Below are positions 17,921 to 38,222 of a DNA stretch of 47,204 bases, piece by piece. Position numbers and translations under genes: made by a program. The notes beneath the pieces were generated by a model that searched no databases, was not told the DNA's origin, and saw only the letters and a list, made by a program, of their open reading frames with translations. The stretch lies in the NCBI GenBank assembly GCA_029553545.1, contig JAKPKU010000157.1, positions 1 through 47,204 of the forward strand, read 5' to 3'. Each line of letters begins with the position of its first letter. Positions within the stretch are counted from its first letter, which is position 1. This DNA comes from Candidatus Cloacimonadota bacterium. GTDB lineage: Bacteria > Cloacimonadota > Cloacimonadia > Cloacimonadales > WRIO01.

Positions 17921-17931
17921 TTGTACACTTT

Positions 17932-21809: not shown

Positions 21810-21839
21810 TTTTTTTCCTTTACCTTGTAAAAAAGAGAG

Positions 21840-22273
21840 CTATTCGCCCTCTTTCATCACTTCTTCGTTGATTTTTTTCAGCACCCAAAGCACTTCATCA
21901 AGCTCCATATCATCAGGGCAAATCCCATTTTTCATCAGGCTGAAATTGATTTCATAAAAGAGATCCTCTACGCCTTCGCTGCTGTGAGGCTGATTCTTTT
22001 CACTATCTCCGAGCCCTTCAACGACTCCTTGATAGCATCGAAAAAACCCAGTATGACACGCTCCAACTCCAACAGACTATAGCTTTCTTCGAAGTCATCA
22101 TCGAGGCCAGTCACGGTGCGACAAAACTCATTGACAACCTCGTGCTCAAACAGTTGATCTGCCAACTTTTGAAAATCAAATGTTGATTCGCCAGAGAATA
22201 GACCTTCAAGTCCTACTCTTTTCGCTATTTGGTACACCTTTTTTATCGTTTTAAAGTTTGTTTTATAGTTCAT
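21840..22273 (-). CDS. Tail assembly chaperone GT fusion via -1 frameshift
   Basis: Ribosomes reading the 101-codon frame that starts at 22273 meet the slippery heptamer T TTT TTC (22040-22046 on the minus strand, codons for FF at about residues 77-78). In the -1 frame the reading continues open for 66 more codons to a TAG at 21840, giving about 144 residues with the tail EDLFYEINFSLMKNGICPDD. This matches the lambda G/GT layout of two chaperone products directly before the tape measure gene. Coordinates span the whole recoded product; translation is not in one frame. Confidence 0.75.
21968..22273 (-). CDS. Tail assembly chaperone (G-like), unshifted product
   Basis: The 101-residue protein is the normal termination product of the frameshift gene. 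It is mostly helical and acidic in its middle (VTGLDDDFEESYSLLELERVI). The ATG follows AGGAGTAAAAA. Homology was not recognised directly. The assignment comes from the slippery site, the extended -1 frame and the tape measure gene next door. Confidence 0.75.
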   Translation of the reverse strand: MNYKTNFKTIKKVYQIAKRVGLEGLFSGESTFDFQKLADQLFEHEVVNEFCRTVTGLDDDFEESYSLLELERVILGFFDAIKESLKGSEIVKRISLTAAKA

Positions 22274-22285
22274 TTTTTACTCCTT

Positions 22286-22936
22286 TTAGTTTGGTACACT
22301 CTCAACTATCCCGTTTCTCTTAAATCGCACGGTTGTCTTTCCTCCGTCATAGAGGAAATACCATGATTGATCAACCATATCTTTCGGGTGTATCTCGGAG
22401 TCGAAAACCCCAATATATAGATCAGATCGAAGGAACTGTGTCTTGATGTTGTGAAATCCGAAGAAGAATTTAGATGGCGATGTCGGGAAAGTAGATGGCA
22501 TATTCAACCCAAAAGAAGAGACGATTGAGAAAAACTTGTGCGTATCAGAGGTCTCTTCGCCTCTGTATCTTGCGACAATTTTGCCGTTCGAGACGGCACG
22601 TATCGCATACCTGCCTGGATTGAGATATAGCGGTGCTGCACCAAGAGAGACTTGGAACATTCCTGACTGTATCTTGTGAGCAGAAGTATGGTACAGGATG
22701 GCAGCCCCTGTTTCGTACCGATATACCTCGAGTTCAAGAATACCGTTTCCAACATCTTGTATCTCCATCATGAAAGCGAAGATGAGCATAGGCTTGGAGA
22801 CCTGAACACAGATTCCCCCCGAGCCATAAGTATCATATACCGCTTCTTGATTTCCTACTGCGAATACCTCAGCGACACTCAGTTGTGTGCTGTACCAGTC
22901 TTTTGGATCCGCAGTATCAGGGATTTTTACCCACAT
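22286..22936 (-). CDS. Hypothetical phage structural protein
   Basis: This 216-residue protein, beginning MWVKIPDTADPKDWYS, lies between a fibre-like gene and the tail chaperones. It has many beta-prone stretches (ICVQVSKPMLIFAFMMEIQDV, YLNPGRYAIRAVSNGKI) and resembles a receptor-binding or fibre-tip beta-sandwich, but I do not recognise a family. The ATG at 22936 follows GGATAGGAT. Confidence 0.55.
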   Translation of the reverse strand: MWVKIPDTADPKDWYSTQLSVAEVFAVGNQEAVYDTYGSGGICVQVSKPMLIFAFMMEIQDVGNGILELEVYRYETGAAILYHTSAHKIQSGMFQVSLGAAPLYLNPGRYAIRAVSNGKIVARYRGEETSDTHKFFSIVSSFGLNMPSTFPTSPSKFFFGFHNIKTQFLRSDLYIGVFDSEIHPKDMVDQSWYFLYDGGKTTVRFKRNGIVESVPN

Positions 22937-22942
22937 CCTATC

Positions 22943-23584
22943 CTATCCTTTCCATACGTACAGGGCTGACCCGAAGCGTATTATTTCGCCTTCATTGCCT
23001 GTGGCTGGCAATGTTGTTTTCGAGGCTATCAGATCGTTTGTACCGAGCGTTACATCAGCAGACAGTGGTTTATTGTTGACTTTCCTGGTGGTATCCACCT
23101 TATTATCGAGAGCGGTTGTAAGATCTGTGATTTTCGATTGTGGCAGCGTAGGTATTCTATCTTCAACGAATGTACCCGATGTGATCTTCGATGCTGCCAG
23201 GTTTGGTATATCTGCTGCAGCAGGCGTCCAAGTGCTTGCTCTCGCACCTACATCGGAAGCTGCCAGCGTTACATCTGCAGAGAGCGCTTTCCCGTTGACT
23301 TTCCTGGTGGTATCCACCTTATTATCGAGAGCGGTTGTAAGATCTGTGATTTTCGATTGTGGCAGCGTAGGTATTCTATCTGCACCGAATGTACCCGATG
23401 TGATCTTCTCAGCTGCCAGGTTTGGTATATCCGCAGCCGCGAGCGAGCTTTTCAGCGCCAGAGACCCCAGGCCGTCAACTTTGGAATTCGGTACATTTTG
23501 CACCAATTTTTGGTTAGAATCGAGGGACGCAAGTCCTCCAGCTATGCCTATTTTCTCTTCGTCGAGAATTTCTTTCCATGCCAT
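22943..23584 (-). CDS. Repeat-containing tail fibre protein
   Basis: The 213-residue protein contains two copies of a 73-residue unit built around SKITDLTTALDNKVDTTRKVN, with ITSGTF and RIPTLPQ, a pattern common in phage tail fibre shafts. The C-terminal end GNEGEIIRFGSALYVWKG looks like a small tip domain. The two units are almost identical at DNA level. The ATG follows GAGGAGGCATAAA, which overlaps the end of the preceding 50-codon gene. Confidence 0.75.
   Translation of the reverse strand: MAWKEILDEEKIGIAGGLASLDSNQKLVQNVPNSKVDGLGSLALKSSLAAADIPNLAAEKITSGTFGADRIPTLPQSKITDLTTALDNKVDTTRKVNGKALSADVTLAASDVGARASTWTPAAADIPNLAASKITSGTFVEDRIPTLPQSKITDLTTALDNKVDTTRKVNNKPLSADVTLGTNDLIASKTTLPATGNEGEIIRFGSALYVWKG
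23076..23433 (-). repeat. 219-bp near-identical tandem repeat inside the fibre gene
   Basis: The segment beginning at 23076 recurs at 23295, a period of 219 bases (73 codons). About 87 bases are identical and the similarity continues with few changes. This DNA-level identity suggests recent duplication or ongoing gene conversion. Confidence 0.8.
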
Positions 23585-23585
23585 T

Positions 23586-23738
23586 TTATGCCTCCTCTTT
23601 CATCATTTCTTGTATTATCATAATAGCCCCTTCTGTCTGAAGGATCCTTTTTGAGAGCTCTTTTCTTTGTTTTTTCAGCGCACTGTAGTTAGCTATAAGA
23701 TTGTCGTATGTCTCTTCTATCTTGTCTTTTTTTTTCAT
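23586..23738 (-). CDS. Small hypothetical coiled-coil phage protein (50 aa)
   Basis: This short gene has an excellent AAGGAGTCTGA ribosome-binding site before its ATG at 23738. It overlaps the upstream gene's stop by four bases (23735-23738) and ends two bases before the fibre gene's ATG. The product starts MKKKDKIEETYDNLIANYSA and is charged and helical throughout, with a leucine/isoleucine heptad pattern. It may be a fibre chaperone or trimerisation factor by position. That role is inference. Confidence 0.7.
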   Translation of the reverse strand: MKKKDKIEETYDNLIANYSALKKQRKELSKRILQTEGAIMIIQEMMKEEA

Positions 23739-23995
23739 TCAGACTCCTTATATATATATAGTTTACTTTTTTTTTGGAATATCTGCCCATTGATAGGATT
23801 GGTAGGGAACTCACTACCACCCAGAAGGAGATTATTGTTTCTTATCCCAAGATCCTCTTTCTGGCGAATCTCGGTTTTTCGTATGAACCCTGCATCCATA
23901 TCATTAGACAGGACTGGCGGAGTCTGATTTCCGAACAAGCTTTCCGCCGATATGTTCGACTTATTTTGTCTTTCTACGAGCTTCAACAGGTTCAT
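23735..23995 (-). CDS. Small phage structural protein, fibre-associated
   Basis: The 86-residue product ends with PINGQIFQKKSKLYIYKESE, like the short beta tip motifs (GxIwxxxxLYVY) seen at the ends of fibre proteins. The ATG overlaps the upstream fibre gene's TAA by one base and follows GGAGAACCAATA. No catalytic motif is visible. Confidence 0.6.
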   Translation of the reverse strand: MNLLKLVERQNKSNISAESLFGNQTPPVLSNDMDAGFIRKTEIRQKEDLGIRNNNLLLGGSEFPTNPINGQIFQKKSKLYIYKESE

Positions 23996-24708
23996 TATTG
24001 GTTCTCCGATTGCAGTAGGGCTATCTTATGCGCCAGCGTATTTGAACTATGTAGTACATTCGCTAGCGATTGAAGAGCGTCCGTGTCTTGTGCGAACGCA
24101 TTGACTATATTTTGGATTGTTAGTGTTTGCATGTAGTTTTTGACTTGTGTTTCAAAATCAGAATCTATGTGCTGAAACACGTGAGAATACTGTGCCTGTC
24201 TGTAAGACTTGCCAGAAAAAACCATTATTTTGATATGCAATTGTGCACCATTAGGTACTCCCAAAGCAGCCTCTGGAATATACAGAAAGCTCGAAGACGA
24301 AGAAGCGCTAAAAACTGTATAAGAATTGTACATTACCGCAACCATTATAGAAGAAACGACTATTGAAGGTTCGGTAGATATCGAAATACTTAATCCTCCA
24401 GGTCTATTAGAAATAGACGAGGTGATTTCTATACCTTCCAAGTCAGGCATCAATAGATCAAGTGTATTCTTTATTTCTGATATTCGGTCAGACATATCAG
24501 AAATATCCTCTTCTATTACGCCGATAGATGCATGATTATGATCGATGGAGGAATACTCATCGTCATGGTTGTGATTAATAGGTGCATATCCAGAATGAGT
24601 ATGTTCCGAGTCCGCTTTGCTTGATACCATAGCCAGTAAGGTATTCAAGGCAACTCGAAATTTTTCGCCCCATCCTGTTTCACCATCGCTTGGTAGGTTT
24701 AAACTCAT
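23995..24708 (-). CDS. Tail fibre / collar-like protein with His-rich repeats
   Basis: The 237-residue protein contains HTHSGYAPINHNHDDEYSSI and a further IDHNHASI, histidine repeats that in phage fibres coordinate metal along a trimeric shaft. A predicted coiled coil (residues 65-88) follows, then a beta-rich domain. The start codon follows AAAGGAGGATTTAT. It is the first of a run of fibre-type genes placed before the chaperone and tape measure genes, which is not the usual siphophage position. Confidence 0.7.
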   Translation of the reverse strand: MSLNLPSDGETGWGEKFRVALNTLLAMVSSKADSEHTHSGYAPINHNHDDEYSSIDHNHASIGVIEEDISDMSDRISEIKNTLDLLMPDLEGIEITSSISNRPGGLSISISTEPSIVVSSIMVAVMYNSYTVFSASSSSSFLYIPEAALGVPNGAQLHIKIMVFSGKSYRQAQYSHVFQHIDSDFETQVKNYMQTLTIQNIVNAFAQDTDALQSLANVLHSSNTLAHKIALLQSENQ

Positions 24709-24720
24709 ATAAATCCTCCT

Positions 24721-25146
24721 TTAGTTTAGTATTGTATTCTCTATTGTACTGATATTCCATTTCATATTTTTTGTAATATTCTCCATTGAGGAGTTTATTT
24801 CGTAATATGGCAAGCTCTCGAGAGCAAAATCTATCTTCCCATCCAAATACCTTAGTTGAGAAGGATATGGTAGTTTTTCCTTTAATTTTCGCCACTGATA
24901 GCCAGAAAGAGTCTCCCAAGCTACCAAGAACTCTTCGCAACCCATAACCAAGTAAAAAAGAGACTCATACTCTGCAGAACTTGCCAAAATCGATATTTGT
25001 AACTTGTCTGTATAGTACTTTCCGTGTCGAAAGGGTTGGTTGGCGACAAAAGGATTTTCCTTTTCAAATACATATTTCACTTCTGGAGTTACCTCTATTG
25101 TTCCCTGAAACTCATACAATTCGTCGCCAACCTTGATTCGTATCAT
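24721..25146 (-). CDS. Hypothetical phage protein after tail tube candidate
   Basis: This 141-residue protein begins MIRIKVGDELYEFQGTIEV, a small beta domain. I do not recognise a family. The ATG follows CAGGGAGCTAATA. Position between a tube-like gene and fibre genes suggests a structural or assembly role. A different reading frame at 24680-24940 overlaps it but has no ribosome-binding site. Confidence 0.55.
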   Translation of the reverse strand: MIRIKVGDELYEFQGTIEVTPEVKYVFEKENPFVANQPFRHGKYYTDKLQISILASSAEYESLFYLVMGCEEFLVAWETLSGYQWRKLKEKLPYPSQLRYLDGKIDFALESLPYYEINSSMENITKNMKWNISTIENTILN

Positions 25147-25148
25147 TA

Positions 25149-25682
25149 TTAGCTCCCTGTCCCTATGCTCAATTTCTTATATTTTACCGCATCTGTGATT
25201 TTGTTGCATTTTCTTGTCGCCCTGAAAGTAATTTTCGAAGGTGTATCTCCTTCTACAACCGAAAGGCTGCCTTCGCTTGTTACAACAACCCCTGACAGTG
25301 CAAAAAATATGTCCTTTGCTTGATCTGGCACGAACAAAAAGGAATATACTTTTCGACCGAGATCGCCACAAAAATCAAGCATCTCATCTGTAATTGTTAC
25401 GCTCACAAAATTGCCTTGCACCTCATACCCCAGACCAACAGTAGAGAAGTCAATCTCATATGTCTTTTCAGTCCAGCTTATATTAGATCCTGTATTGTCC
25501 ATATCCCCAAACGGGAGGAAATCTCCCGAGCTGCCATATAATGCGGCAAGCGCTTCAAGGTCAGAAGGTATATCATCATCGCCGAATTCACCTTCGGCAA
25601 TATAAATCCTACATTTCGCTGCAAGTATCGCGTTTACCTGGTGCTGGAATCCATTTGTATTCGTTATTTTTTTTAATGCCAT
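25149..25682 (-). CDS. Putative tail tube / major tail protein
   Basis: The 177-residue protein is beta-rich, with SWTEKTYEIDFSTVGLGYEV and a C-terminal Ig-like looking stretch GVVVTSEGSLSVVEGDTPSKI. Size and position, upstream of the fibre and tape measure genes in the late operon, fit a tail tube protein, but I could not recognise a specific family. The start follows GGAGATTAAAAA. Confidence 0.5.
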   Translation of the reverse strand: MALKKITNTNGFQHQVNAILAAKCRIYIAEGEFGDDDIPSDLEALAALYGSSGDFLPFGDMDNTGSNISWTEKTYEIDFSTVGLGYEVQGNFVSVTITDEMLDFCGDLGRKVYSFLFVPDQAKDIFFALSGVVVTSEGSLSVVEGDTPSKITFRATRKCNKITDAVKYKKLSIGTGS

Positions 25683-25685
25683 TTT

Positions 25686-25907
25686 TTAATCTCCAAACTG
25701 TTGATCTAACTCGATCATTTTTTCTTTTCTGTCTTTACCAAATGCACCATACAATATTTCTGCGATGATCTCCACCGCAGCGTCATCAATCGTGTTTTCT
25801 GTTCGTTTTGCCAAGTCACGAAGGACCTTAATTATTAGGTCCAGAATTGCCTCATTAGGCAGTATAGTCATAATTATATGCAGTATCCATTTCATTGTAC
25901 TTTTCAT
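25686..25907 (-). CDS. Small hypothetical protein in the lysis region
   Basis: The 73-residue product has an amphipathic N-terminus (MKWILHIIMTILPNEAILDL) and an acidic helical remainder. It starts from ATG after GGAGAATAT and overlaps the endolysin gene by 4 bases. This could be a lysis accessory protein, but no clear transmembrane pair is seen. Confidence 0.55.
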   Translation of the reverse strand: MKSTMKWILHIIMTILPNEAILDLIIKVLRDLAKRTENTIDDAAVEIIAEILYGAFGKDRKEKMIELDQQFGD

Positions 25908-26329
25908 ATATTCTCCTTTTTTTTTTCATGAGCTACCATCTTGGATAGCTCTATTGCACGTTTTCCTACTTGCTTAGCCCACAGAGAATCAAGCATCTCT
26001 TCCGATGCCTTGACATATTCTCCATTTTGCAGGAAACGAAGTGTTTTTTTGAAACCCAAAAGCCCTCCAATACCAAGATTGAAGCACATATCTACCAACA
26101 CATATTGTATCGCTTTGGGCTGTTCTTTCCACCAGCTCATCTGTCTATCGAGGCTGTCCATGCAATCTCTGATATCGTTAGTGAGCATCATCGAGGCTTC
26201 CGCCTCGCTTATACCTCGAGCTTCCAAGTTACGACCATACCCTATAGTAAGTTTACCTGCACTGCATTTATAGGGCTTCAACACCAGCCCTTCATGCTTT
26301 TTTAACATGTTTTCAAGTTCTTTGATCAA
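25904..26329 (-). CDS. Phage endolysin, T4-type lysozyme (GH24)
   Basis: This muramidase cleaves MurNAc-GlcNAc bonds for host lysis. The 141-residue protein has catalytic Glu13 (KKHEGLVLKPYKC), then Cys22 and Thr28 in CSAGKLTIGYGRNLE, fitting the known E-8aa-(D/C)-5aa-T triad with the cysteine variant. No signal peptide is visible, so it needs a holin. The start is TTG, preceded by GGGAGGATTTCG, and overlaps the upstream stop as TTGA. Confidence 0.93.
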   Translation of the reverse strand: MIKELENMLKKHEGLVLKPYKCSAGKLTIGYGRNLEARGISEAEASMMLTNDIRDCMDSLDRQMSWWKEQPKAIQYVLVDMCFNLGIGGLLGFKKTLRFLQNGEYVKASEEMLDSLWAKQVGKRAIELSKMVAHEKKKENI

Positions 26330-26598
26330 CGAAATCCTCCCATCTGCGACACGATCACCGATATTCCAGCTATCGCTAATATCAAGCGGTAGCCAGTCTC
26401 AAGAAGGCTCACCCATCCATTTCTCTTTTGAAGATTATCTCGATTATATTTTGCCATGTTTTTGAAAAAATAAGATGAGTCATCATGTTTCACGAAATTG
26501 TCGCAGGAGAAAAGAGCAAGCAGCTTATCAATTTGGCACTTCATATGCTCGATTGTTGACTCAAGTTTCACAAGTCTCTCCGCATCATTTCTTTCCAT
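26326..26598 (-). CDS. Small membrane protein next to endolysin, possible holin
   Basis: From the ATG at 26598 the product is about 90 residues. A polar helical N-terminus is followed by one hydrophobic segment near the C-terminus (YRLILAIAGISVIVSQMGGF). Immediate linkage to the endolysin by a TTGA overlap supports a holin-type role. An upstream in-frame ATG at 26646 would overlap the capsid gene and is less likely. Confidence 0.6.
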   Translation of the reverse strand: MERNDAERLVKLESTIEHMKCQIDKLLALFSCDNFVKHDDSSYFFKNMAKYNRDNLQKRNGWVSLLETGYRLILAIAGISVIVSQMGGFR

Positions 26599-26612
26599 GT
26601 TTCGTACTCTTA

Positions 26613-27527
26613 TTAGCTTGTAGGATCTGCTGTAGTTTTGTCGCACACCATGACCACATAACTGTCTTCAAGTTTAGCATTTCCAAAGGTATTATAGGGG
26701 ACATATCTGTCTGCATTCGCAAGGTCTTGCAAACTATAGTTTGTTTCTACTAATTGCTTTCCATACATATACGCCAACGACTGCAAGAATATGACAGGTG
26801 TAGAGTCGTTTTTCTTCGCAGTGGAGTTGATTTCGCCTTTTTTATCAACCATTGGAAGATGGTTGAGAAGAACTATGTCGAAGCCAAATGCTCGCCCAAC
26901 AAAGCCTTCTACGATAGGCATATTGCTTGTTTTTCCTATCTTGTCAGCACTCACAAACTCAGCTATCTCCATTAGTTGAGATTCGTGCTCTGGACCTATA
27001 ATACACACCCTGCCATGGAGCGGAGCATTCGCCTCGTTCAACGCCTTGCGAGCAGCAATGAAGTCTGCCTTTGTTATTGTGTCAGCTGCGGTGCTTGCAG
27101 CTGAAAAATCGACTATGTTCGCAGCCTTGACAGAACCAATAATGCCCTTCAAAATTTCCACATCCATGCTTTCCAAAATATGTTCTGCTGCTATTTTGGA
27201 CTTCTCCTCCACTATTTTCACTGTAGTCTGATATGCAAGATCACGCTTGACTAAAAATGGATTACCAACCTTCTTATTCAAAAGAAGGTCTTTTGAACCA
27301 ACAGCGTCGCCAGAAGGTGCATCGAATGCAGCTCCCACGGATACTACTTGACCATCGTCATTTTCCAAGTATGGAACGTGTATTGCCGCTTGCCCCTTTG
27401 TTGCATACTGAGACACGTTTGTTACGTACTTGAGAGCGTACGCTCTGGTCTCCAAAGCTCTTTTCATTGAGTTTAGTGTTTGGCCTGTAACTATATCGCC
27501 GTATATTGTGTTCGATGCTTGTGCCAT
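26613..27527 (-). CDS. Major capsid protein
   Basis: The 304-residue protein, MAQASNTIYGDIVTGQTLNS at the start, follows the protease-scaffold gene with a one-base TAATG overlap, the classical position for the coat protein. Features such as KITKADFIAARKALNE-like helices, GRVCIIGPEHESQLMEI and FGFDIVLLNHLP suit an HK97-fold coat protein. No separate decoration gene is recognised. The lysis genes follow directly downstream, a compact and somewhat unusual order. Confidence 0.85.
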   Translation of the reverse strand: MAQASNTIYGDIVTGQTLNSMKRALETRAYALKYVTNVSQYATKGQAAIHVPYLENDDGQVVSVGAAFDAPSGDAVGSKDLLLNKKVGNPFLVKRDLAYQTTVKIVEEKSKIAAEHILESMDVEILKGIIGSVKAANIVDFSAASTAADTITKADFIAARKALNEANAPLHGRVCIIGPEHESQLMEIAEFVSADKIGKTSNMPIVEGFVGRAFGFDIVLLNHLPMVDKKGEINSTAKKNDSTPVIFLQSLAYMYGKQLVETNYSLQDLANADRYVPYNTFGNAKLEDSYVVMVCDKTTADPTS

Positions 27528-28552
27528 TATCTATTTCCCTCCATCCATTGGTTTTTGAGCTCCTCGTATAGAGCTTGATTGTCTCTATATATTTCTTCTG
27601 CTTTTGCAGGGTTTTTCATGAGCATATCCCATGTGATTTCCTCTGTATCGCCAGCTATAATCTTTGTTTCTTTAGTCATTTTTTGAGGCTGTTTTCTTGC
27701 ATTTTGGATATACTCATCCAGTAATGATTCGTCATGCTTCAAAAGAATTTCAGCAAATCCTTTTTGTCTTGGCGTAATGATCCCTTCCGCAACCGCTTGG
27801 TTTAGTTTAGCCTCATTGTTTGCACTTTTAAGTGCCTTATTTTCCTGCTCCATCGCCAACAATCTATCAATCTTGACGATTGCTTCCTCTCCGTTTTTGA
27901 CGCCTAAGATCTTGTATAGATCCTGCATATTTTCCTCCTTTTTATTTGCCATTAGTGGCATGCTTTGCATCTCTACAAATTTCTTGTACTCTTCTTTTTC
28001 AGAAAAGTAGTCTGACCTGTACTTGTTTGTTATTTGCACTGCTTCAACGACTTCTGTGCATAGCCCATATGACTTTGCCTCTTCAGCCGTGAACCATGTT
28101 TCCTTCGACATTAATTCGCTAATTCTTTCCGTGCTCATGCCTGAAAAAGTACTATACGTATTCACCAACTGGCTTTTCAACTTGTCGAGAAGATCCGCTG
28201 TCTTCCTCATTTCCTCGCTATCTCCACATACGGAAGATATAGGGTTGTGAATCATCATCATGCTGTTTTTTGCCATCTTGATTGATTTGCCAGACATGGC
28301 AATCACCGATGCCATCGAGGCAGCAAGGCCCTCAACAACCACCTCTACATCAAGATTTCTCAAGACATTGTAGATCGCAAGCCCCTCAAATACTGACCCG
28401 CCTGGAGAATTGATTCGCAGTGTTATCGTACCTTTGATATCCTTGATCTGATCAATGAATCTCTTGGCACTAATGCCCCAGATCCCAATCTCGTCAAAAA
28501 GATATACATCTGCTCCGCCTCCACGGTTGTTTTCTATCTTGTACCAGTCCAA
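27527..28552 (-). CDS. Prohead protease, ClpP-like, with C-terminal scaffold region
   Basis: The N-terminal 190 residues are a ClpP-family serine protease with INSPGGSVFEGLAIYN, nucleophile Ser in EGLAASMASVIAMSG, catalytic His in MMMIHNPIS and downstream acidic residues. The C-terminal 150 residues are a charged coiled-coil-like scaffold (DRLLAMEQENKALKSANNEA), as in Mu gpI where protease and scaffold are joined. The start codon is TTG after GGAGGTAAAG. It is the first gene of the minus-strand late operon and is driven from the divergent promoter near 28600. Confidence 0.9.
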   Translation of the reverse strand: MDWYKIENNRGGGADVYLFDEIGIWGISAKRFIDQIKDIKGTITLRINSPGGSVFEGLAIYNVLRNLDVEVVVEGLAASMASVIAMSGKSIKMAKNSMMMIHNPISSVCGDSEEMRKTADLLDKLKSQLVNTYSTFSGMSTERISELMSKETWFTAEEAKSYGLCTEVVEAVQITNKYRSDYFSEKEEYKKFVEMQSMPLMANKKEENMQDLYKILGVKNGEEAIVKIDRLLAMEQENKALKSANNEAKLNQAVAEGIITPRQKGFAEILLKHDESLLDEYIQNARKQPQKMTKETKIIAGDTEEITWDMLMKNPAKAEEIYRDNQALYEELKNQWMEGNR

Positions 28553-28587
28553 CTTTACCTCCTTTCTAATTCTTTTCTAATTCTTTC

Positions 28588-28682
28588 TGGCGTCATTATA
28601 GCACAGATACTTTTTTTTATTCGTTTTTGTAGGTAAAATGCCCACAAAATGCGAACAAATTCTCATTCTGTGGTATAATGAC
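28588..28682. promoter_or_regulatory. Mirror-image divergent late promoters
   Basis: The minus strand has CTGTGCTATAATGACGCC and the plus strand CTGTGGTATAATGACGCC, giving -10 boxes at 28595-28600 (minus) and 28674-28679 (plus). They serve the protease gene and the gp37-like gene respectively. Neither has a recognisable -35 box, which suits promoters needing an activator like Mu C or Mor. Confidence 0.75.
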
Positions 28683-28705
28683 GCCCGAAGAAGAAAGGAG
28701 AATAT

Positions 28706-29092
28706 ATGCTGGAAACACTGATGAACGACATTATCACAGCAATACAAGAAACAAAGCTCTTCAGGCAAATTGAACCATACGAAGGTCAATTCGACAATCT
28801 GGACGAATTTCTTGTGATGCCACCGTCATGCTTCATTGAGCTCTCTGGAGGTGCACCTGACAATGCACTCCAAAGAAAATCGATCATTGAAGTAGCATTA
28901 TATATAACAACAAACCACATTAAGGGCAAAACAAACGCAGCAATGCTCAACGCTCTGGAGATGACAAAAAAAGCACTCAATCAAAAAAGATTGACAAACG
29001 GATATACACACTATCTTTCTTTCGATCGATTGGGTATATTCCCTGGCTTCTGCACATACCGAATGATGTTCAACTTCAAGGAGGACTTATGA
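28706..29092 (+). CDS. Mu gp37-like protein (DUF1834 type)
   Basis: The 128-residue protein has the pattern of Mu gp37-family proteins: an N-terminal helix followed by PSCFIELSGG, IIEVALYITTNH and a C-terminal FPGFCTYRMMFNF. It lies next to the gp36-like gene, as in Mu, though the gp37-gp36-gpG-gp27-gp28 order here is rearranged. The ATG follows AGAAAGGAGAATAT. It is the first gene of the plus-strand block. Confidence 0.65.
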   Translation: MLETLMNDIITAIQETKLFRQIEPYEGQFDNLDEFLVMPPSCFIELSGGAPDNALQRKSIIEVALYITTNHIKGKTNAAMLNALEMTKKALNQKRLTNGYTHYLSFDRLGIFPGFCTYRMMFNFKEDL

Positions 29093-29469
29093 TATACACA
29101 ACAATCTCAAAGATAAAAGACTCGCTTGGCGACAAAAAAGATATGATCATCGCAGATATCGACGACAACAGGCTCGCAGACATTATCGCCGACCAATCAG
29201 CTTATATTGACGGATATCTGCGAATCAGATACGACCTGCCTATAGACGAAAACAACCCAATACTGGAGAGAATTTGTCTTCTACTCTCAAAAACTGAAAT
29301 ATACAGACTTTTCGCCGCAAACGATATCCCAGAAACAGTGAAAGAGCAGGAAATACAAGCAAGAAAAGAACTTGAGAAGATTCAAAAAGGCGAAATTATT
29401 ATAAAAAAAGACACAAATGCTGATGATGAAATCATCTCAAAGCCAACATATCACACGGAGTGGCTCTAA
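29089..29469 (+). CDS. Mu gp36-like head-tail protein (DUF1320)
   Basis: The 126-residue protein has DNRLADIIADQSAYIDGYLR and YDLPIDENNPILERICLLLS, typical of the DUF1320/gp36 helical head-tail connector family. It overlaps the previous gene as ATGA after GGAGGACTT. Confidence 0.8.
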   Translation: MIYTTISKIKDSLGDKKDMIIADIDDNRLADIIADQSAYIDGYLRIRYDLPIDENNPILERICLLLSKTEIYRLFAANDIPETVKEQEIQARKELEKIQKGEIIIKKDTNADDEIISKPTYHTEWL

Positions 29470-29958
29470 ATGGAAAACAGAGCAATGCTGATGGCGATAG
29501 GTGCTACAATATCCTCAAAAATCAAAAAAAGAATCAGAGAAAACAAGATTAAGCCTTCTGCAAACAAGCAAAATAACAAAGCAACCCTCGTAGAAACAGG
29601 CAACTTGCTCAGATCGATAACATACACTGTACGAGGAGACACCATCTATATTGGTACAAACGTAAAGTATGCAAGGATCCACCACGAAGGAGGTACTATC
29701 CGACCACAAAGAGCCAAATTCCTTGCAATACCGCTCACACCTGCAGCAAAAGTCAAGCGACCATTAGAATGGGAAAACACCTTTATCCAAAAAGGCATCA
29801 TCTTTCATACTCTGAAAAACGGCAAGCTGGAAGCTTTATACAAGCTAAAAAAAAGCGTTGAAATACCTGCAAGACCATACATGTTCGTCGATAAGCAGGA
29901 CATCGCTCAAATCGAAGAAATGGTTCGTAAATATGTAAAAAATATGAGGAGTAAATAA
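29470..29958 (+). CDS. Phage virion morphogenesis protein (Mu gpG-like)
   Basis: The 162-residue protein contains LVETGNLLRSITYTV, IYIGTNVKYARIHHEGG and the C-terminal PARPYMFV, the signature series of the gpG/gpS tail completion family. It probably acts at the head-tail junction. It begins directly after the previous stop. Confidence 0.88.
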   Translation: MENRAMLMAIGATISSKIKKRIRENKIKPSANKQNNKATLVETGNLLRSITYTVRGDTIYIGTNVKYARIHHEGGTIRPQRAKFLAIPLTPAAKVKRPLEWENTFIQKGIIFHTLKNGKLEALYKLKKSVEIPARPYMFVDKQDIAQIEEMVRKYVKNMRSK

Positions 29959-29959
29959 A

Positions 29960-30415
29960 ATGGCATATACGCAAATAGAAAGAAATCACGCTGAAAACCT
30001 ATACGTTATAGAAGGGAAAAGCATTAATGAAATAGGAAACATCATGAAAATCCCCATAAAAACACTCTACGCCTGGAGAAAAAAAGATGAGTGGGATCTC
30101 ACAATAAAGACCTCTGGTGCAACTGGGCTTGCACTTGAACTCTCAAAAAGCATGTCAAACGAGCTAAAAAAGGCAATGGCAGAAGGGACTCTCAGCGATC
30201 CAAAAACAGCTGACGCCCTCTCGAAAATTGCTAAAATCGTAGAGAAAATACAACCAGAAAGAACCATGCTATCCAACATATACATTATGCTCGACGATGT
30301 AACAAAGATAATACACCATCTTAACGCACCCGAGCTCATGGCTCTCTGGCTGAAGCATATCAGAGAGATATCTGATGAACTTAGAAAGAAATATGCTTCT
30401 GGTGGAGTCAGATAA
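29960..30415 (+). CDS. Small terminase-type protein (DUF1804, Mu gp27-like)
   Basis: The 151-residue protein has an N-terminal helix-turn-helix (AENLYVIEGKSINEIGNIMK, then IKTLYAWRKKDEWD) and a helical remainder. It sits directly before the large terminase with an overlapping stop/start and probably recognises packaging DNA. The ATG follows GAGGAGTAAATAAA. Confidence 0.82.
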   Translation: MAYTQIERNHAENLYVIEGKSINEIGNIMKIPIKTLYAWRKKDEWDLTIKTSGATGLALELSKSMSNELKKAMAEGTLSDPKTADALSKIAKIVEKIQPERTMLSNIYIMLDDVTKIIHHLNAPELMALWLKHIREISDELRKKYASGGVR

Positions 30416-31917
30416 TGAAATACAAAAAAATGACTGAGCAACAGTTCGAGAAAAAACTCGACCTGCTTATCAACTCGATAAAAAAAGAAGCGACTCCTTT
30501 CGTAGGAGACACAACAGAGCAAAACACAAGAGTAGCAAAAGCAAAAAACGACTTTTTTTTCTTTGCCAAAACTTATTTCCCTCACTACATTAGATCGCCT
30601 TTCGGCGATGGACATAGATTAATGCACCAAGAAACAGAAAAAAGAGGGCAAATAACAGCCATTGCTGGCTTCAGAGGCTTGGGAAAAACAACCCAATTAA
30701 GCATTATAAAGCCCATTTGGCTCGCCCTGAAAGAAGAGATCTATTTCAATACCAAGGTCGCCAAATCTGATGAAAAAGCAGCAGAACGAACTGCTGCAAT
30801 AAGAGCAGAATTTCTTTTCAATCAGAGAATCATACAAGACTTTGGAGAACAGGTGAACCCTATGACTTCAATCTCCGATTTCACAACCAAGTCAGGCTGT
30901 CGTTTCCTCGCACTTGGATACAAATCAAGTATCCGTGGTGTCCTTCACATGACTCATAGACCAGACTATATCGATATTGACGACTTGGAAGATCATCAGT
31001 CTTTCAATGAACGCATCGCGAAAGAAAAGCTTCAATTCGTCACAGAAGAAGCATATGGTGCGATGGAAGATGCAAACGGATATCTGATCTGGCTTGGTAA
31101 TCTAACACACCAGAAAAGTGCATTAAACCTATTCAAACGCTCCACAGAAAGCGGTGAGTTTGCAGGGAGAAAGATGCTCATAATCAAAATTGACGATGGT
31201 CATTTCAACCCAACATGGCATGAAAAACATACCAAAGACCAGCTGATCAAAATATATCAGACAGTTGGTCGATTTGGCTATGAGAGACATTACAGGATGA
31301 ATCCCATAGTAGAAGGATTGAAGTTCAAAGAAGAATGGATCAAATACTATGATCCCAGAGAGTACCTTAACGCAAGGTTTGATAAAATCGTAACATACAC
31401 TGATCCTTCTCTGGGGGAAAAGGCTACAAGCGATTACAAGGCGACCATGACAGTAGGTTTCATTGGAGGAAAATATGTTCTGCTAGAGCATCGCCTAAGA
31501 AAAGAATCAATTATTGACATGTTGAAGTACTTGTACGATGTTCATCATCGGTACAACTCGCATCTGTTCATGGAATCAAATTTCTGGCAAAAAATTCTCT
31601 GGGACTTCATTCCTAAGATGGCAGAGCAATACGGATATTTGCTTCCTGTGAGAGGAGTGGAAAACAGAGAAACAAAAGCTCTCAGAATAGAACGCCTTGA
31701 GCCTTACTTCGAGTGGGGTTGGCTGCTTTTTCCAAACATAGTCAATGAAGAGCTTGAACTATTAAAAGACCAATTGCTTGGCTTCCCAAACTACCCAAAC
31801 GATGACGGACCAGACGCATTAGCTGGTGCCATTAATGCACTAAGAATAAACACGCAAAAAGATACATACGAAAGCATTGAGTCTTCACTTGCCACACAGT
31901 TTTCTGATGTGTGGTAA
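30415..31917 (+). CDS. Terminase large subunit (Mu gp28-like)
   Basis: The packaging motor and nuclease. The 500-residue protein has a Walker A loop in AGFRGLGKTTQLS near residue 84, a Walker B region in DYIDIDDLED near residue 183, and a C-terminal RNase-H-like nuclease starting YTDPSLGEKATSDYKATM near residue 327, with late acidic GPDALAGAINAL. It overlaps the small subunit by one base. Packaging is probably headful from integrated copies, as in Mu. Confidence 0.93.
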   Translation: MKYKKMTEQQFEKKLDLLINSIKKEATPFVGDTTEQNTRVAKAKNDFFFFAKTYFPHYIRSPFGDGHRLMHQETEKRGQITAIAGFRGLGKTTQLSIIKPIWLALKEEIYFNTKVAKSDEKAAERTAAIRAEFLFNQRIIQDFGEQVNPMTSISDFTTKSGCRFLALGYKSSIRGVLHMTHRPDYIDIDDLEDHQSFNERIAKEKLQFVTEEAYGAMEDANGYLIWLGNLTHQKSALNLFKRSTESGEFAGRKMLIIKIDDGHFNPTWHEKHTKDQLIKIYQTVGRFGYERHYRMNPIVEGLKFKEEWIKYYDPREYLNARFDKIVTYTDPSLGEKATSDYKATMTVGFIGGKYVLLEHRLRKESIIDMLKYLYDVHHRYNSHLFMESNFWQKILWDFIPKMAEQYGYLLPVRGVENRETKALRIERLEPYFEWGWLLFPNIVNEELELLKDQLLGFPNYPNDDGPDALAGAINALRINTQKDTYESIESSLATQFSDVW

Positions 31918-31932
31918 ATAAAAGGAGGAAAT

Positions 31933-34491
31933 ATGAATTTTTTAAAAAAACTTTTTCAGACTGACAATATTGCCAATCAGACAGGGAAGTCACTGCTTAG
32001 TGTATCCCAAATCGATCAACAAAAACCATTATGGTCAGCAAAAATTACACCTGGTGAGATAGCAACTGCTCTCAGCTTCGCACGTTCAGGAAAGCTCAAG
32101 CATCTTCTATCTTTATACGCAAACTTATATTCGCTTGATGACAATCTCGCTGGAGATACCGATGTCAGAGTGGAGTCAATCAAGTCTGCTACATGGACTC
32201 TACCAGAAAATCTTAGCAAAAAACAAACTGAGTTTTTCAACAATTTCTTAGATGAATTCTTTCCCACTCTCATCGACCAGGCGACAGACTTAAAGCTCAC
32301 AGGTGCCCTTTTCAGGCAGATTATATATCGCCTGGAAAACGGATTATACACCGTCGACAAATTCATTAGCTATGAAAATCTTGATCTTCGAAATATCAAT
32401 GGTGAACTTGTTTTGTATATTGACGAAGTACCTCAATCCTTAGATGATGCCAAATTTATTCGTTTTTTGCAGGATTACAGCGTTTACGAGTCGATAGTCA
32501 AGTACTATGCCTTCTTTTCCTTTTCGCTCAATAATTGGGCTTCTTTTATCGAAATATATGGCAAACCTGTTCGCATTGGAAAATACAAGCCTGGCTCTTC
32601 AACAGAAGAAAAAAATATATTGAAACAAATGGTCAAAAATCTTGGAACAGATCTCGGAGCTGTAATCAGCGAAAACACCCTCATCGAGTTCGCGGACTTC
32701 AAAAATGCATCCGCAAACGCAAACCTGTATAGCGACCTACTTGACTTCTGCAAAAAAGCAGTGTCAAAAAGGATACTTGGACAAACTCTCACTACCAATA
32801 CAGAAACAACAGGCTCATACGCACAAGCCAAAGTACATGACATGGTGAGACAAGATATCCTTCGAGCTGACTTACGAGACTGTGAAAAGTATGTTTCTTG
32901 GATATGCACTAAGCTGAACAACCTGAACTTCAACAACGATAGCATCAAAATCAAACTCTCTACAGCCCAAAACGTAGAGCTATCAAGCAGGATCGACATC
33001 GACGTCAAACTCAACAATATCATCGAAATCGACCCTGAGTATTGGTATCAAACATACAATATCCCAATCCCAAAAAATGGGGCAAAAGCAAAAGAAATCC
33101 AAACTATGCAATTCCCTATGTGGGGAAAAGCAAACAATACACCAGAGCCTGTTGAAAGTGGTTATTTCCAAAATGGAAACAACCACTCTATTATTAGGAA
33201 ACTGAAAGAGATAAGAGAGAAAATAAACAATGCCAAATCATACAATGAGATCAAAAATATCAAATACCCTGTTGAACTTTACCATGCCGTAGCAAGCGAA
33301 ATGTATCAATCTGTGATGAATACATATACTGAAATTAGACTTGATTGCAAAAGTAATAGAAATATACAAAACAAAAAATACTTTGAGATTGATTGGACTC
33401 TGGAGGACATTGAAGCTCTTCACGCCTTCCGTGCGGAAACATTTATTGTAGCTGGTGTGTCCTCGCAAACGCTCATCGATATGATCAAAGAAGAAGCTGA
33501 AAAAGCATTCACACAAGGTACAACTTTTGACGATTTTAAGAGAACACTAAAGCTCAATGGATTCGAGCCAGAAAACCCATATCACCTCAGAACAAACTTC
33601 TACCAGGCAATCAATACCGCAAGAGCGGCTGCGGAGTGGAAGAACTACCAAACCACAAAAGAAATATTTCCATACTTAAGATACGTAACTATGGAAGATG
33701 AAGCTGTGAGAGATGAACACGCAGGTCTACACGGCATTGTCAGAGCGATTGACGATCCTTTTTGGCAAAAATACTATCCTCCCAACGATTGGGGATGTAG
33801 ATGTTATGTCGAACCTGTTGCCGCCGATGAAGCGGCAGGCGATACCAATTTCAATAAAATGCCGCCCACTGATTATCAGATAAAAGAAGAGTTTCAAAGG
33901 AATCCCGGAGAAGACAACTCTCTGTTTGGCTCTTGGCTTTCATGCGAAGATGCAAAAAACATAGCATCCTTCGAGCAAATTACGGCAAGATCAATAAGAC
34001 TCTACATTCACAACTCAGGGCAAAGATACTGTCCTCAGATGTACGAAAAAACATATAAAGACCTCAATTTAAAAGAATGGCAGGATATGAAAGAACACAA
34101 ACTCCCTGATCTTTTTCCTACTGATGGATTGTCAAAAGAAGAAATGCTCAAAGCATATAATGAGTATCTGGGAGACAGAACAATCCTAGACGCAACAAAT
34201 ACACCAATAAAGCTTAAATATGATAACAAGCTCGTTAATCCAAAATACGATAAATATAATGTGGCAAGACGAGTACAGCATATGTACTGTATTGAAGATG
34301 TTATCAAGGCTCCAGATGAAATTTGGCAGACAGATAAAAAAGAAGGAAGAGCATATTATTTTAAAAAGTATTCTAACAATGTTATAATTATGGCTGACTT
34401 TGTTAATGGCTCCTTAGAGTACTTCAACATATTTACTGCAAGGGATAGCTATATAAACAAACAAAGAAAGGGATTTATGATAAAAGCATAA
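31933..34491 (+). CDS. Portal-MuF-toxin-like triple fusion protein
   Basis: The 852-residue protein joins three parts. Residues about 1-400 are a DUF935 portal (Mu gp29), with TDVRVESIKSATWTLPE and GYFQNGNN nearby. Residues about 490-650 are a MuF/gp30 minor head domain, with NFYQAINTARAAAEWKNY, YVTMEDEAVRDEHAGLHG and NDWGCRCYVEP. Residues about 700-852 form an added C-terminal domain with RRVQHMYCIEDVIKAPDEIW, AYYFKKY and a final INKQRKGFMIKA, resembling phage BECR-fold RNase toxin domains. The start follows AAAGGAGGAAAT. No immunity gene is apparent. See findings. Confidence 0.88.
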   Translation: MNFLKKLFQTDNIANQTGKSLLSVSQIDQQKPLWSAKITPGEIATALSFARSGKLKHLLSLYANLYSLDDNLAGDTDVRVESIKSATWTLPENLSKKQTEFFNNFLDEFFPTLIDQATDLKLTGALFRQIIYRLENGLYTVDKFISYENLDLRNINGELVLYIDEVPQSLDDAKFIRFLQDYSVYESIVKYYAFFSFSLNNWASFIEIYGKPVRIGKYKPGSSTEEKNILKQMVKNLGTDLGAVISENTLIEFADFKNASANANLYSDLLDFCKKAVSKRILGQTLTTNTETTGSYAQAKVHDMVRQDILRADLRDCEKYVSWICTKLNNLNFNNDSIKIKLSTAQNVELSSRIDIDVKLNNIIEIDPEYWYQTYNIPIPKNGAKAKEIQTMQFPMWGKANNTPEPVESGYFQNGNNHSIIRKLKEIREKINNAKSYNEIKNIKYPVELYHAVASEMYQSVMNTYTEIRLDCKSNRNIQNKKYFEIDWTLEDIEALHAFRAETFIVAGVSSQTLIDMIKEEAEKAFTQGTTFDDFKRTLKLNGFEPENPYHLRTNFYQAINTARAAAEWKNYQTTKEIFPYLRYVTMEDEAVRDEHAGLHGIVRAIDDPFWQKYYPPNDWGCRCYVEPVAADEAAGDTNFNKMPPTDYQIKEEFQRNPGEDNSLFGSWLSCEDAKNIASFEQITARSIRLYIHNSGQRYCPQMYEKTYKDLNLKEWQDMKEHKLPDLFPTDGLSKEEMLKAYNEYLGDRTILDATNTPIKLKYDNKLVNPKYDKYNVARRVQHMYCIEDVIKAPDEIWQTDKKEGRAYYFKKYSNNVIIMADFVNGSLEYFNIFTARDSYINKQRKGFMIKA

Positions 34492-34649: not shown

Positions 34650-34680
34650 AAAAAAGGCACCCGTAGGTGCCTTTTTGTTT
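34650..34680. terminator. Bidirectional terminator between convergent blocks
   Basis: GGCACC-CGTA-GGTGCC (34656-34671) has A-runs before and T-runs after, so it can stop transcription in both directions. With the hairpin at 34497 it insulates the plus-strand packaging operon from the early operon. Confidence 0.85.
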
Positions 34681-34728: not shown

Positions 34729-34890
34729 CTATACGTTTTTCCCATAGTAGATATCTTTCACTCGAGAGTATGAAAGATAAAACTGCTTCGCAGTCAATTC
34801 AAGCGATACTGTCAATGAAAATCCGTTTTTTGTAATGTACTCTTGAATCTGATTTCTAATCTTTTCGTCCCTTTCTTTTCTTTGTTTCAC
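34729..34890 (-). CDS. Small putative DNA-binding protein (53 aa, GTG start)
   Basis: The gene starts with GTG at 34890 after GGAGGGCAAA, overlapping the TGA of the gene upstream (GTGA). The product is basic: KQRKERDEKIRNQIQEYI at the start and TAKQFYLSYSRVKDIYYGKN at the end, which looks like a short helix-turn-helix. It is the last early gene before the terminators and so in the place of a middle-gene activator, though it is much shorter than Mu Mor. The function is inference. Confidence 0.6.
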   Translation of the reverse strand: MKQRKERDEKIRNQIQEYITKNGFSLTVSLELTAKQFYLSYSRVKDIYYGKNV

Positions 34891-35108
34891 TTTGCCCTCC
34901 AAAAAAAGTGCTTTTCAGCATAGTCATCGCCTGCTTGTTTTCCCATATATTTTTCGACTATACTGCGGTTCAGGCGAATTTGGCTCACTTCCAAGAGGAA
35001 GTACTTTCGGAGGGCACAGTTTCGTTTTTCACTTCTGGTGCATATATTGAGCTCACATCGTGGAACACTGCACCCTACGCATGCCTGAGTTTGCTTGTAT
35101 TTGTCGAT
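34887..35108 (-). CDS. Small four-cysteine protein with likely AUC start (73 aa)
   Basis: An open frame runs from ATC at 35108 to TGA at 34887. The sequence AAGGAGGGGAAAA precedes the ATC at ideal spacing and follows the upstream stop. The product has a zinc-binding-like cluster CVGCSVPRCELNIC followed by a fifth Cys in KRNC, then a basic helical tail. No ATG, GTG or TTG occurs in frame before the cysteines. The GTGA overlap with the next gene supports translation. AUC starts are rare, so a sequencing error is possible. Confidence 0.55.
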   Translation of the reverse strand: MDKYKQTQACVGCSVPRCELNICTRSEKRNCALRKYFLLEVSQIRLNRSIVEKYMGKQAGDDYAEKHFFWRAK

Positions 35109-35121: not shown

Positions 35122-35457
35122 CTATATTGCCACAGAGAAATTGACCTTTTCGGCCACTTTCCAATATGTTACGATTATCTTTTTTTCAGCAACTCTTGCC
35201 ATCATAGATCGTATTACCTGTGTCGGCACTATATCTGCTTCCATTATCTCCTCTATCTCGCCATCTTCTACACTGCGATAGATTTTGACCACATCTTGTG
35301 CAATCTCTACTGTGACGTCTCCATCCTGAAATACAATGGAGTTCTCTTTCATTGAGCTCGCTGTATATCCGCTGCAATATCCCTTCAGCTCTACCTCTGG
35401 ATGCTCGAATAAGACGTTTTTTTTCATAATCTCGTCATACATATTGAACTTACCCAT
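35122..35457 (-). CDS. Hypothetical early phage protein (111 aa)
   Basis: Not recognised. The product starts MGKFNMYDEIMKKNVLFEHP and has alternating beta/acidic segments such as IVFQDGDVTVEIAQDVVKIY. It overlaps the DUF3164 gene by 8 bases and so is translationally coupled. Its place in the early operon suggests a regulatory or replication accessory role. Confidence 0.6.
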   Translation of the reverse strand: MGKFNMYDEIMKKNVLFEHPEVELKGYCSGYTASSMKENSIVFQDGDVTVEIAQDVVKIYRSVEDGEIEEIMEADIVPTQVIRSMMARVAEKKIIVTYWKVAEKVNFSVAI

Positions 35458-36076
35458 CTTGTTGTTCCTCCCATACCTCTACAGCTGAAAAATGAAGAGA
35501 TATTGTCTCCCACTTGCCACGTGCATCATCTCGAACACGAAAGTTGATGTACTCCTTGCTACCTACGGTCATTAGAGAATCGTCGATTAACTTCATCGCC
35601 TCGTTCCACTCCTCATCGTCGAATTTGAGTTTTCTTAAATCGAGGATCTGCTTTGTATCGACAGTGCCTGATTTGTCCACGTTGAACGCCCTCATCACAA
35701 GAGCTCGTAGCTCATGCTTTGCGTTTTTTGACCATTTTTCCAAGCACTTATCTATTTTGCTTTTTGCGATGTTGAGTCGCTCGTCAAAAGCTATTCTCTG
35801 CTGAACCTTCACGTCGACCATCTTGGTTTGAGGAAAGTTCATTAAAGCAGCATTTCCTCGCCATTTTTCGCTGTACTGGTCGGCTACGCTCTCCAAGTAT
35901 TCTCCTACCAGGTCCACAACTTGCCGCTTGAGTTTTCTTAGCTCTTTCTGGTGAAAGAGCACCATGCCAAGAACTCTCTCAACCATCATATGTCGATCGA
36001 GATCAATGGGATCAATATACTTCACAGGTACTGAATGTCCATCTCCATCCAGGAGAAATGTTGTTTTTTTGTTCAT
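35450..36076 (-). CDS. DUF3164 family Mu-like early protein
   Basis: The 208-residue protein has FLLDGDGHSVPVKYIDPIDL at the N-terminus, a long central helical region and a C-terminal stretch RDDARGKWETISLHFSAV, matching the DUF3164 proteins common in Mu-like early regions. The molecular role is unknown. The start follows AAAGGATATAAAG. Confidence 0.82.
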   Translation of the reverse strand: MNKKTTFLLDGDGHSVPVKYIDPIDLDRHMMVERVLGMVLFHQKELRKLKRQVVDLVGEYLESVADQYSEKWRGNAALMNFPQTKMVDVKVQQRIAFDERLNIAKSKIDKCLEKWSKNAKHELRALVMRAFNVDKSGTVDTKQILDLRKLKFDDEEWNEAMKLIDDSLMTVGSKEYINFRVRDDARGKWETISLHFSAVEVWEEQQDG

Positions 36077-36117
36077 CTTTATATCCTTTCTTGTTCAGTG
36101 CCTCCGCACTGTAGTTT

Positions 36118-36438
36118 TCATTTACTCATCATCTCCATTACTACAGCATTCGATGTTCTTAGGTTTTCAAGTGCAGTGTAATGCTGCCCCTGTAGGACGT
36201 TATAGAGGTGATTCAACGCCTCGTATTTTTGTCGAACATCTGTTAATTCTTCGTCCTTCTGTAGTTTTTCTACCATTACATCTAACAGTTTGTGATCAAG
36301 TTCTTTTGATCGTCCCTTGTAGAATTCCATTTCATTCTTCGCTCTGCCAATTTCTTTTTGATAGCTACGATATAAGATATACAACATTGTATATCCCACT
36401 ATCACGATCAATAGCCCAATCCATGTCATATTAGTCAT
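36118..36438 (-). CDS. Small membrane-anchored coiled-coil protein
   Basis: The 106-residue product has one N-terminal transmembrane helix (WIGLLIVIVGYTMLYILY) and a long coiled-coil (EIGRAKNEMEFYKGRSKELD onward). It overlaps the next small membrane protein gene as ATGA after GGAGGCAAT. The pair could be spanin-like or an early membrane-associated complex. Neither can be shown from sequence. Confidence 0.6.
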   Translation of the reverse strand: MTNMTWIGLLIVIVGYTMLYILYRSYQKEIGRAKNEMEFYKGRSKELDHKLLDVMVEKLQKDEELTDVRQKYEALNHLYNVLQGQHYTALENLRTSNAVVMEMMSK

Positions 36439-36608
36439 ATTGCCTCCACTATTTTTATTTCTTTTCGGACTGCTTTTTCAGCCCTTGCATCTTCAACCTC
36501 TTTAATCGCGTTTCTCTGTCTTCTAATAGTTCTTGTCTGTCGTGTGATAATTCTTCTCTGCCAAACAATTAAGCTTATAAGTACGATAGATATTAGTGCT
36601 GTTGTCAT
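36435..36608 (-). CDS. Small membrane protein, early region
   Basis: From the ATG at 36608, placed after AAAGGAGACAAA, the product has about 57 residues: a hydrophobic N-terminal helix (TTALISIVLISLIVW) followed by a strongly basic, helical tail. It is coupled to the downstream coiled-coil protein gene by a 4-base overlap. No family is recognised. Confidence 0.6.
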   Translation of the reverse strand: MTTALISIVLISLIVWQRRIITRQTRTIRRQRNAIKEVEDARAEKAVRKEIKIVEAI

Positions 36609-37009
36609 TTTGTCTCCTTTTTTGCGGAGCAAAATAGGCGTACATAATCAAAAACCTCATATAGCTCCTTGAGTGTCAGGGCTCGGAGTGATTCTCCATA
36701 GCCCCATATTTTCATTGCATCGTGCATATCAGAATATGTGAATCCGTTTGCTGTCCAAAGCCCCATTATGTTTTTTCTAAGCTTTTTGCCTTTTGCCGCT
36801 TGTTGCGCTGCCCTGTTCTTTGCGGCGTACTTGCGAAGCATCGATATTACTCTTCTTCGCTCTGATTCGTTGATAAGGTTCCAGTGGCTCTTTCTGAAGT
36901 TTTTGACAAGAAAACCCTGAAGACCTTTTTCATCCCAGCCTGCATCTTTCATCAGGCTGTGCATGTACAATCCTTGCTCGTCATATTGAGCTTCTTTGCA
37001 ATAGTTCAT
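36605..37009 (-). CDS. GemA-like early protein (DUF1018, Mu gp16 type)
   Basis: The 134-residue protein contains LMKDAGWDEKGLQGFLVKNF and INESERRRVISMLRKYAA, a layout like the DUF1018/GemA proteins of Mu-like phages, which modulate host gene expression. The C-terminal half (LRKNIMGLWTANGFTYSD) also fits. Similarity is moderate by eye. The ATG follows GGAGTCAAA. Confidence 0.65.
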   Translation of the reverse strand: MNYCKEAQYDEQGLYMHSLMKDAGWDEKGLQGFLVKNFRKSHWNLINESERRRVISMLRKYAAKNRAAQQAAKGKKLRKNIMGLWTANGFTYSDMHDAMKIWGYGESLRALTLKELYEVFDYVRLFCSAKKETK

Positions 37010-38134: not shown

Positions 38135-38222
38135 ATCTACCTCCAGATAGTTTTTTTGTTTATTCTATTATTAATGATTTACTGTCTTTAACACTCTATG
38201 CGTCTGTAAAGGGATCACCTAA

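Follow-up and report, generated by a model that had tools for sequence, protein, structure and literature searches.

How might a phage arrange the expression of two late gene blocks that are transcribed away from each other? The question is raised by a 153-bp gap in a genome of Candidatus Cloacimonadota, which separates the gene for a head protease (27527-28552, minus strand) from the first gene of a connector/terminase/portal block (28706, plus strand) and which holds, within it or at its edge, two copies of an 18-base element in mirror-image orientation. The window considered here, i.e. the whole stretch of 47,204 nucleotides analysed, includes both blocks, the early genes that follow them and part of the neighbouring host chromosome.

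Gene blocks of the prophage

The host of the gap is a Mu-like prophage. The combination of a MuA-type transposase, a MuB-type ATPase and Mu portal and F domains is that of a Mu-like transposable phage; the families Portal_Mu, Phage_Mu_F and AAA_22 are matched above their cut-offs, DDE_2 and rve below theirs, and the MuB label rests on gene order and relatives. By family profile, the closest relatives of the large terminase among named genomes are in Candidatus Cloacimonadota, the window's own phylum holding more of them.

The leftward late block (17932-28552, minus strand) encodes the Clp-type head protease, major capsid protein, lysozyme, tail proteins and tape measure; size, gene order and comparison with relatives were the basis for naming the last two. 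The rightward late block (28706-34491, plus strand) comprises a small head-tail gene, gp36-like and gpG-like genes, the small and large terminase genes and a Mu-type portal/F fusion; this portal gene (31933-34491) joins Mu portal and Mu F-like domains to a C-terminal PBECR2-like nuclease domain. A bidirectional terminator-like hairpin (34651-34676) lies between the convergent late and early operons. The early operon (35122-40619, minus strand) encodes the transposase, the ATPase, a winged helix-turn-helix (wHTH) protein, a protein in the gp16/GemA position, a DUF3164 protein and small proteins, and is followed by an HTH_3 repressor-like gene (40888-41316, plus strand). The region ahead of the latter (about 40.6-40.9 kb) has a palindrome, TTTCTAGTATAGAAA, different from that in the gap. 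Several near-identical units containing ATGTCCATGTGATAAACCAAATGTCCATGTGATACTTTC follow the repressor gene at 41470-41780, close to what is presumably the right end of the prophage.

Mirror-image -10 elements

A preliminary description of the locus had proposed an inverted pair of CTGTG[C/G]TATAATGACGCC elements, 79 bp apart, at 28588-28682. Both copies are present, CTGTGCTATAATGACGCC at 28589-28606 on the minus strand and CTGTGGTATAATGACGCC at 28668-28685 on the plus strand, with starts separated by 79 bp; the pair itself stands, but its right copy extends three bases further than had been given. A motif search of the window at up to three mismatches returns these two copies only, where 0.03 matches would be expected by chance, and none of 100 shuffles gave two matches, the pattern being one derived from these copies. 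Similarly, TATAATGACGCC occurs twice in the phage's own 2.88-Mb genome, both times at this gap. Inverted matches at 17/18 bases whose starts lie 18-150 bp from each other number three in the window, the present pair among them, versus none in each of 10 Markov-1 windows.

Both copies contain an extended -10 element of the form TGTGn, followed by a C-rich discriminator. The leftward promoter reads TGTGC-TATAAT, with its hexamer at 28600-28595 and an expected start at about 28587-28588, and the rightward promoter reads TGTGG-TATAAT, with its hexamer at 28674-28679 and an expected start at about 28686-28687. Neither has a -35 box, as had been claimed: with spacers of 15-19, the best match to TTGACA is 3/6 on the plus strand and 2/6 on the minus strand, on which grounds a sigma-70 promoter with a -35 was rejected. 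The window contains no Rfam element. The view that these are divergent late promoters without -35 boxes, one directed towards the protease, capsid, lysis and tail genes and the other towards the connector, terminase and portal genes, is retained, and such an arrangement would be expected to give synchronous expression of the packaging and capsid/tail operons.

The near-identity of the two copies had also been taken to include a shared contact site for an activator or RNA polymerase; comparison with other phages does not support a shared activator site within it. Within one phage the two arms agree at 17/18 bases in the window, at 12/18 in the relative L003 and at 1-9/18 in the other 12 two-arm phages, and the 18-mer with fewer than four mismatches is found in none of eight related viral contigs. 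Because the arms in other phages match at just 1-12/18 bases, an activator site inside the 18-mer was rejected. When 30 arms are aligned on the hexamer, the columns kept are T-A-T..T, a weak TG ahead of it, and C-rich bases followed by an A, the presumed start. Judged by these comparisons, the 18-base identity is peculiar to the window, and regulatory conservation does not reside in the 18-mer as such.

A palindrome midway between the promoters

The conserved regulatory feature appears to be an imperfect palindrome, GTAGGTAAAATGCCCAC (28629-28645), to which the preliminary description did not refer. Its centre, at 28637, is the very base that lies halfway between the two TATAAT hexamers, and is at about -49 from both expected starts. 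We propose that it is the shared operator of an activator; the earlier suggestion that one activator is common to both divergent late promoters is, from the sequence arrangement, very probably right.

The zero-mismatch operator is a single copy in its own genome. Near matches with up to two mismatches number 37 per strand, versus 31 in the control, i.e. without clear excess, and a site belonging to a host regulon was rejected. Two relatives with the gene layout of the window, L003 and L004, likewise have hexamers 79 bp apart and, halfway between them, a palindrome, which is GGGTAAAATACCC in L003 (at 7875) and TATAGTAACTTACTATA in L004 (at 8158).

Conservation of geometry in related loci

The promoter analysis covered 15 loci, drawn from 161, and the window, giving 16 loci in which a protease/capsid block on the minus strand diverges from a block running from gA to terminase and portal on the plus strand. 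Loci on the same or near-identical contigs (L025, L026, L101, L104-L108 and L144) were left out before counting, as were those with no gap on the contig (L012 and L142), colinear relatives (L005-L009, L111, L112 and L145-L161) and more distant loci. L023 is without a left arm, and the near-identical left arms of L028 and L029 are both included in the count of 31 arms, with one of them in the alignment of 30.

A palindrome is present in the gap of all 16 loci. In 12 of these no other palindrome of the stretch scores higher; the exceptions are the window, L003, L103 and L024, where it is imperfect (6/9 pairs) and is surpassed by another within the 420-bp stretch. The palindromes fall into letter classes, i.e. 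GTGGGTAnnnTACCCAC, TATmGTAAnTTACkATA and GGTGAAATTTTCACC, and because the letters vary by class, what is common to all loci is position. At 36-38 bp from the palindrome centre a hexamer matching TATAAT at four or more of six bases is found in 26/31 arms, compared with 14 at the best non-neighbouring offset; for at least five of six bases the corresponding numbers are 16/31 and 3. Matches of 3/6 alone occur at the expected offset in the right arms of L027, L031 and L109 and in the left arms of L028 and L029. When up to 301 possible centres per locus are scored for mirrored -10 elements, the palindrome centre is within the top 0.3-14% in 15 of 15 two-arm loci. The palindrome centres were picked by eye, which in the case of the window, L003 and L004 was done once the -10 elements had been seen. 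The Fisher combined value of 7e-11 treats the loci as independent and overstates significance because they are related.

Proposed mechanism

We consider that the gap is probably (about 70%) a symmetric bidirectional late promoter, in which one phage activator dimer on the central palindrome would serve both directions. The proposal builds on the gene layout, the mirrored -10 elements, the exactly central palindrome, a geometry conserved with diverging letters and the lack of -35 boxes; on this view the palindrome would be bound by a protein, and the effect of binding would be activation. On the proposed mechanism a single palindromic operator lies on the dyad axis, with -10 elements, beginning 37 bp to either side, that the housekeeping RNA polymerase of the host would recognise. 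As its early phase closes, the phage would produce a dimeric activator, which would bind at about -49 from both starts, take the place of the missing -35 contacts and recruit polymerase to both promoters, such that a single binding event would turn on the capsid, lysis and tail genes leftward and the packaging and portal genes rightward.

One dyad feeding two opposed polymerases at a fixed distance would provide a clean natural test of the contact between activator and RNA polymerase, and also of whether one bound dimer fires both promoters. It would further offer a handle on late gene control in the phages of a largely uncultured phylum, and mirrored -10 elements around a palindrome may serve as a geometric signature for late promoters and activators in metagenomic phages without database-matched regulators.

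A candidate activator

The candidate late activator is the 57-residue product of a helix-turn-helix (HTH) gene, possibly acting with a Cys-rich partner, whose own gene (34729-34902, minus strand) closes the early operon. The Cys-rich partner would be the product of a small reading frame paired with the HTH gene (34887-35108, minus strand), which has no ATG, GTG or TTG upstream of its Cys motif, the sole apparent start in the window being an ATC after a good ribosome-binding site. An HTH protein of 53-70 residues is encoded at the distal end of this operon in seven of seven phage segments examined, and in two of six further records; of the four misses among the latter, three are contigs that stop in or near the portal gene (L030, L103 and L024) and the fourth is L003. 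A small frame with the pattern C-x4-C...C-(A/M)-L-R precedes the HTH gene in nine of nine phages, in a shortened form in L004. Across nine phages, five of which are from one clade, distance at the end of the recognition helix is related to operator distance when terminase distance is allowed for (partial r 0.45, p 0.023), compared with r 0.13 for the N-terminal part of the protein in the same test.

AlphaFold predicts a three-helix HTH fold for the protein (pLDDT 86). Matches to DUF434 are found for three of seven HTH members (best E 4e-5), as are weak matches to PHROG 836, 'late transcriptional activator' (three of seven, best E 0.13); the window member has no Pfam match above cut-off. Membership of the Mor/C family was rejected, in that none of the seven matches PF08765 at E<=5, Mu Mor and C themselves matching it at E values of 4e-33 and 9e-34, and that profile comparison of the HTH family with Mor/C (hhalign) gives a probability of 1.7. 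The best 50 Foldseek matches of the HTH model are to generic HTH proteins and the DNA-binding domain of Mu transposase, none with E<=0.001, and being generic they do not identify the family. A tblastn search with one HTH member against 50,697 phage records gave no match. A full family member is present in G040; additional matches in G102, G001, G004, G121 and at a second site in G000 are partial, broken or outside a phage context, and were not counted. The Cys-rich frame matches no Pfam family, and no family of the Ogr type is found among 20 window proteins or in that frame; a scan of small standard-start frames of the window for Cys patterns gave just one antisense frame in the tail genes.

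Relation to known systems

The closest known case is the PP/PO region of phage P2, on which the gap described here is a variation within another lineage of phages. In the P2 annotation an activator site for 'pO, pP' (3057-3087, centre 3072) is midway between starts at 3016 (minus strand) and 3127 (plus strand); the protein acting there we take to be Ogr. As in P2, a terminase/portal block and a scaffold or capsid block diverge from one gap, a dyad element lies midway between two starts (inferred here, annotated in P2), and the promoters, examined in this respect in the window, are without -35 boxes. By contrast, the P2 site is at about -55 rather than about -49, the P2 starts are 111 bp apart rather than about 98 bp, the operator differs, and the small terminase gene of P2 is on the capsid side. 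A further difference is that the phage studied here is Mu-like and that no zinc-finger activator of the P2 type (Ogr/Delta) was found in the window.

Mor of phage Mu is, according to PMC4390567, a dimeric activator that binds an inverted repeat at -43.5 and replaces the -35. The present phage resembles Mu in its general type and in the location of the (candidate) activator genes beyond the transposition genes, and it may have an inverted-repeat operator in place of the -35. In Mu, by contrast, all genes annotated between gp16 and the portal (within 7000-15500), those for Mor, C and lysis included, point the same way, and Mor and C have 129-140 residues compared with 57 for the HTH candidate.

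Alternative explanations

The palindrome could instead be the operator of a repressor, either a CI-type phage repressor or a host regulator, which would silence two self-sufficient extended -10 promoters in the lysogen. Palindromes are typical of repressors as well, and a perfect TATAAT with TGTGn can function without a -35 (as stated for TGn in PMC4390567). A position of about -49, however, is upstream of the core promoter and in activator territory, near those of Mor (PMC4390567) and the P2 site; moreover, the repressor gene region has its own palindrome, the -10 elements of most relatives are weaker than those of the window and would need help, and near matches to the operator are not enriched in the host genome. 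We regard repression as unlikely. It is quite improbable that the gap contains two independent, activator-free promoters, with mirror copies produced by recent inverted duplication or conversion and with an incidental palindrome: activator-free function is possible for extended -10 promoters, and the high arm identity of the window compared with its relatives is what recent conversion would give, but the exact geometry and the centred palindrome recur in relatives with dissimilar arms. If the palindrome were not bound by protein but acted as a terminator in both directions or as a structured-DNA element, this would account for the A- and T-runs that flank it in L023, L031 and L013, and for a weak minus-strand hairpin predicted at 28639-28657, overlapping it in the window. 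Yet the palindrome is upstream of both expected starts, hence outside both late transcripts, no T-run follows it in the window, and a terminator would have no use for a constant 37-bp separation from two -10 elements; it is very improbable that this is its role.

It may also be that the symmetric architecture is right and that the activator is another early protein, e.g. the wHTH protein (37006-37383), or a host factor, which we consider a real possibility, somewhat short of even odds. L003, the closest relative by terminase, has a similar operator, and no member of the HTH family was found in the 1.1 kb beyond its portal gene (L167 1-1131), which counts against assignment of the HTH protein as the activator; this stretch contains a different HTH-like frame (...LTQEETAKILGVGIKAIYTRESEL...), possibly as a result of regulator replacement. 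The absence of significant similarity to Mor/C, and of a Pfam match for the window member, points in the same direction. Against another activator are the location of the HTH gene where the early operon ends in all seven phages, its weak covariation with the operator and the weak PHROG 836 matches.

Distant Mu-like contigs

The overall picture, put forward tentatively, is of a strictly symmetric late switch with one site and two promoters in Mu-like phages of Cloacimonadota and, by analogy, Bacteroidota, employing a previously undescribed minimal HTH activator of about 57 residues, perhaps with a Cys-rich partner, whose recognition helix would co-evolve with the palindrome, and with spacing classes (79/78 bp around a single palindrome, 99 bp around a pair) that are one operator period of about 21 bp apart. 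No description of such a symmetric late promoter in these phages was found in the open-licence literature. Among Mu-like phages of Porphyromonas and Bacteroides, BK068094 and hankyphage p00 (BK010646) resemble the window in that terminase/portal genes diverge from protease/capsid genes; the 99-bp ANTTTGCA mirror pair was found in the tested gap of neither. The accessible text of the hankyphage paper names no late promoter (PMC12135933).

More distant Mu-like contigs were compared by means of a motif-pair test, which replaced a generic score that missed distant tandem operators, and which used those 30 of 80 loci with enough upstream DNA (L062, with an unclear gap, being left out). Judging by their motif, which resembles a promoter, and by the occurrence of Bacteroides and Porphyromonas phages in the database results, they are probably phages of Bacteroidota; the protease and terminase blocks diverge in most of them. 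With one mismatch allowed and a motif one base longer than in the first run, ANTTTGCA forms a mirror pair exactly 99 bp apart in 14 of the 30 (0.09 loci expected per distance), in the gap upstream of terminase (L034, L036, L037, L045, L046, L048, L052, L064, L070, L071, L073, L076, L086 and L096). Pairs at other distances occur at 100 bp in two, at 78 bp in two and at 50 bp, the lower edge of the range, in 11. The first run, with no mismatches and the shorter motif, gave five of 30 loci at 99 bp and two at 78 bp. Mostly two tandem palindromes, e.g. GTGTGCAACGGTTGCACAC, are seen by eye between the 99-bp mirror sites, and a single palindrome in the 78-bp versions (L068 and L097). The 99-bp pair may be an independent analogue of the architecture in the window.

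Insertion site

The prophage immediately precedes mraZ and the entire division/cell-wall cluster (17385-17932; gene names read from translations), towards which leftward late transcription would head. The junction between prophage and mraZ (17653-17928) includes a repeat that codes for IKNCIFLKKLAIIVEKF twice. In a genome of the same genus (L263 7789-8757), the region upstream of mraZ holds a remnant with a 94%-identical portal C terminus and a broken HTH gene, left by an old insertion of a related element in this position.
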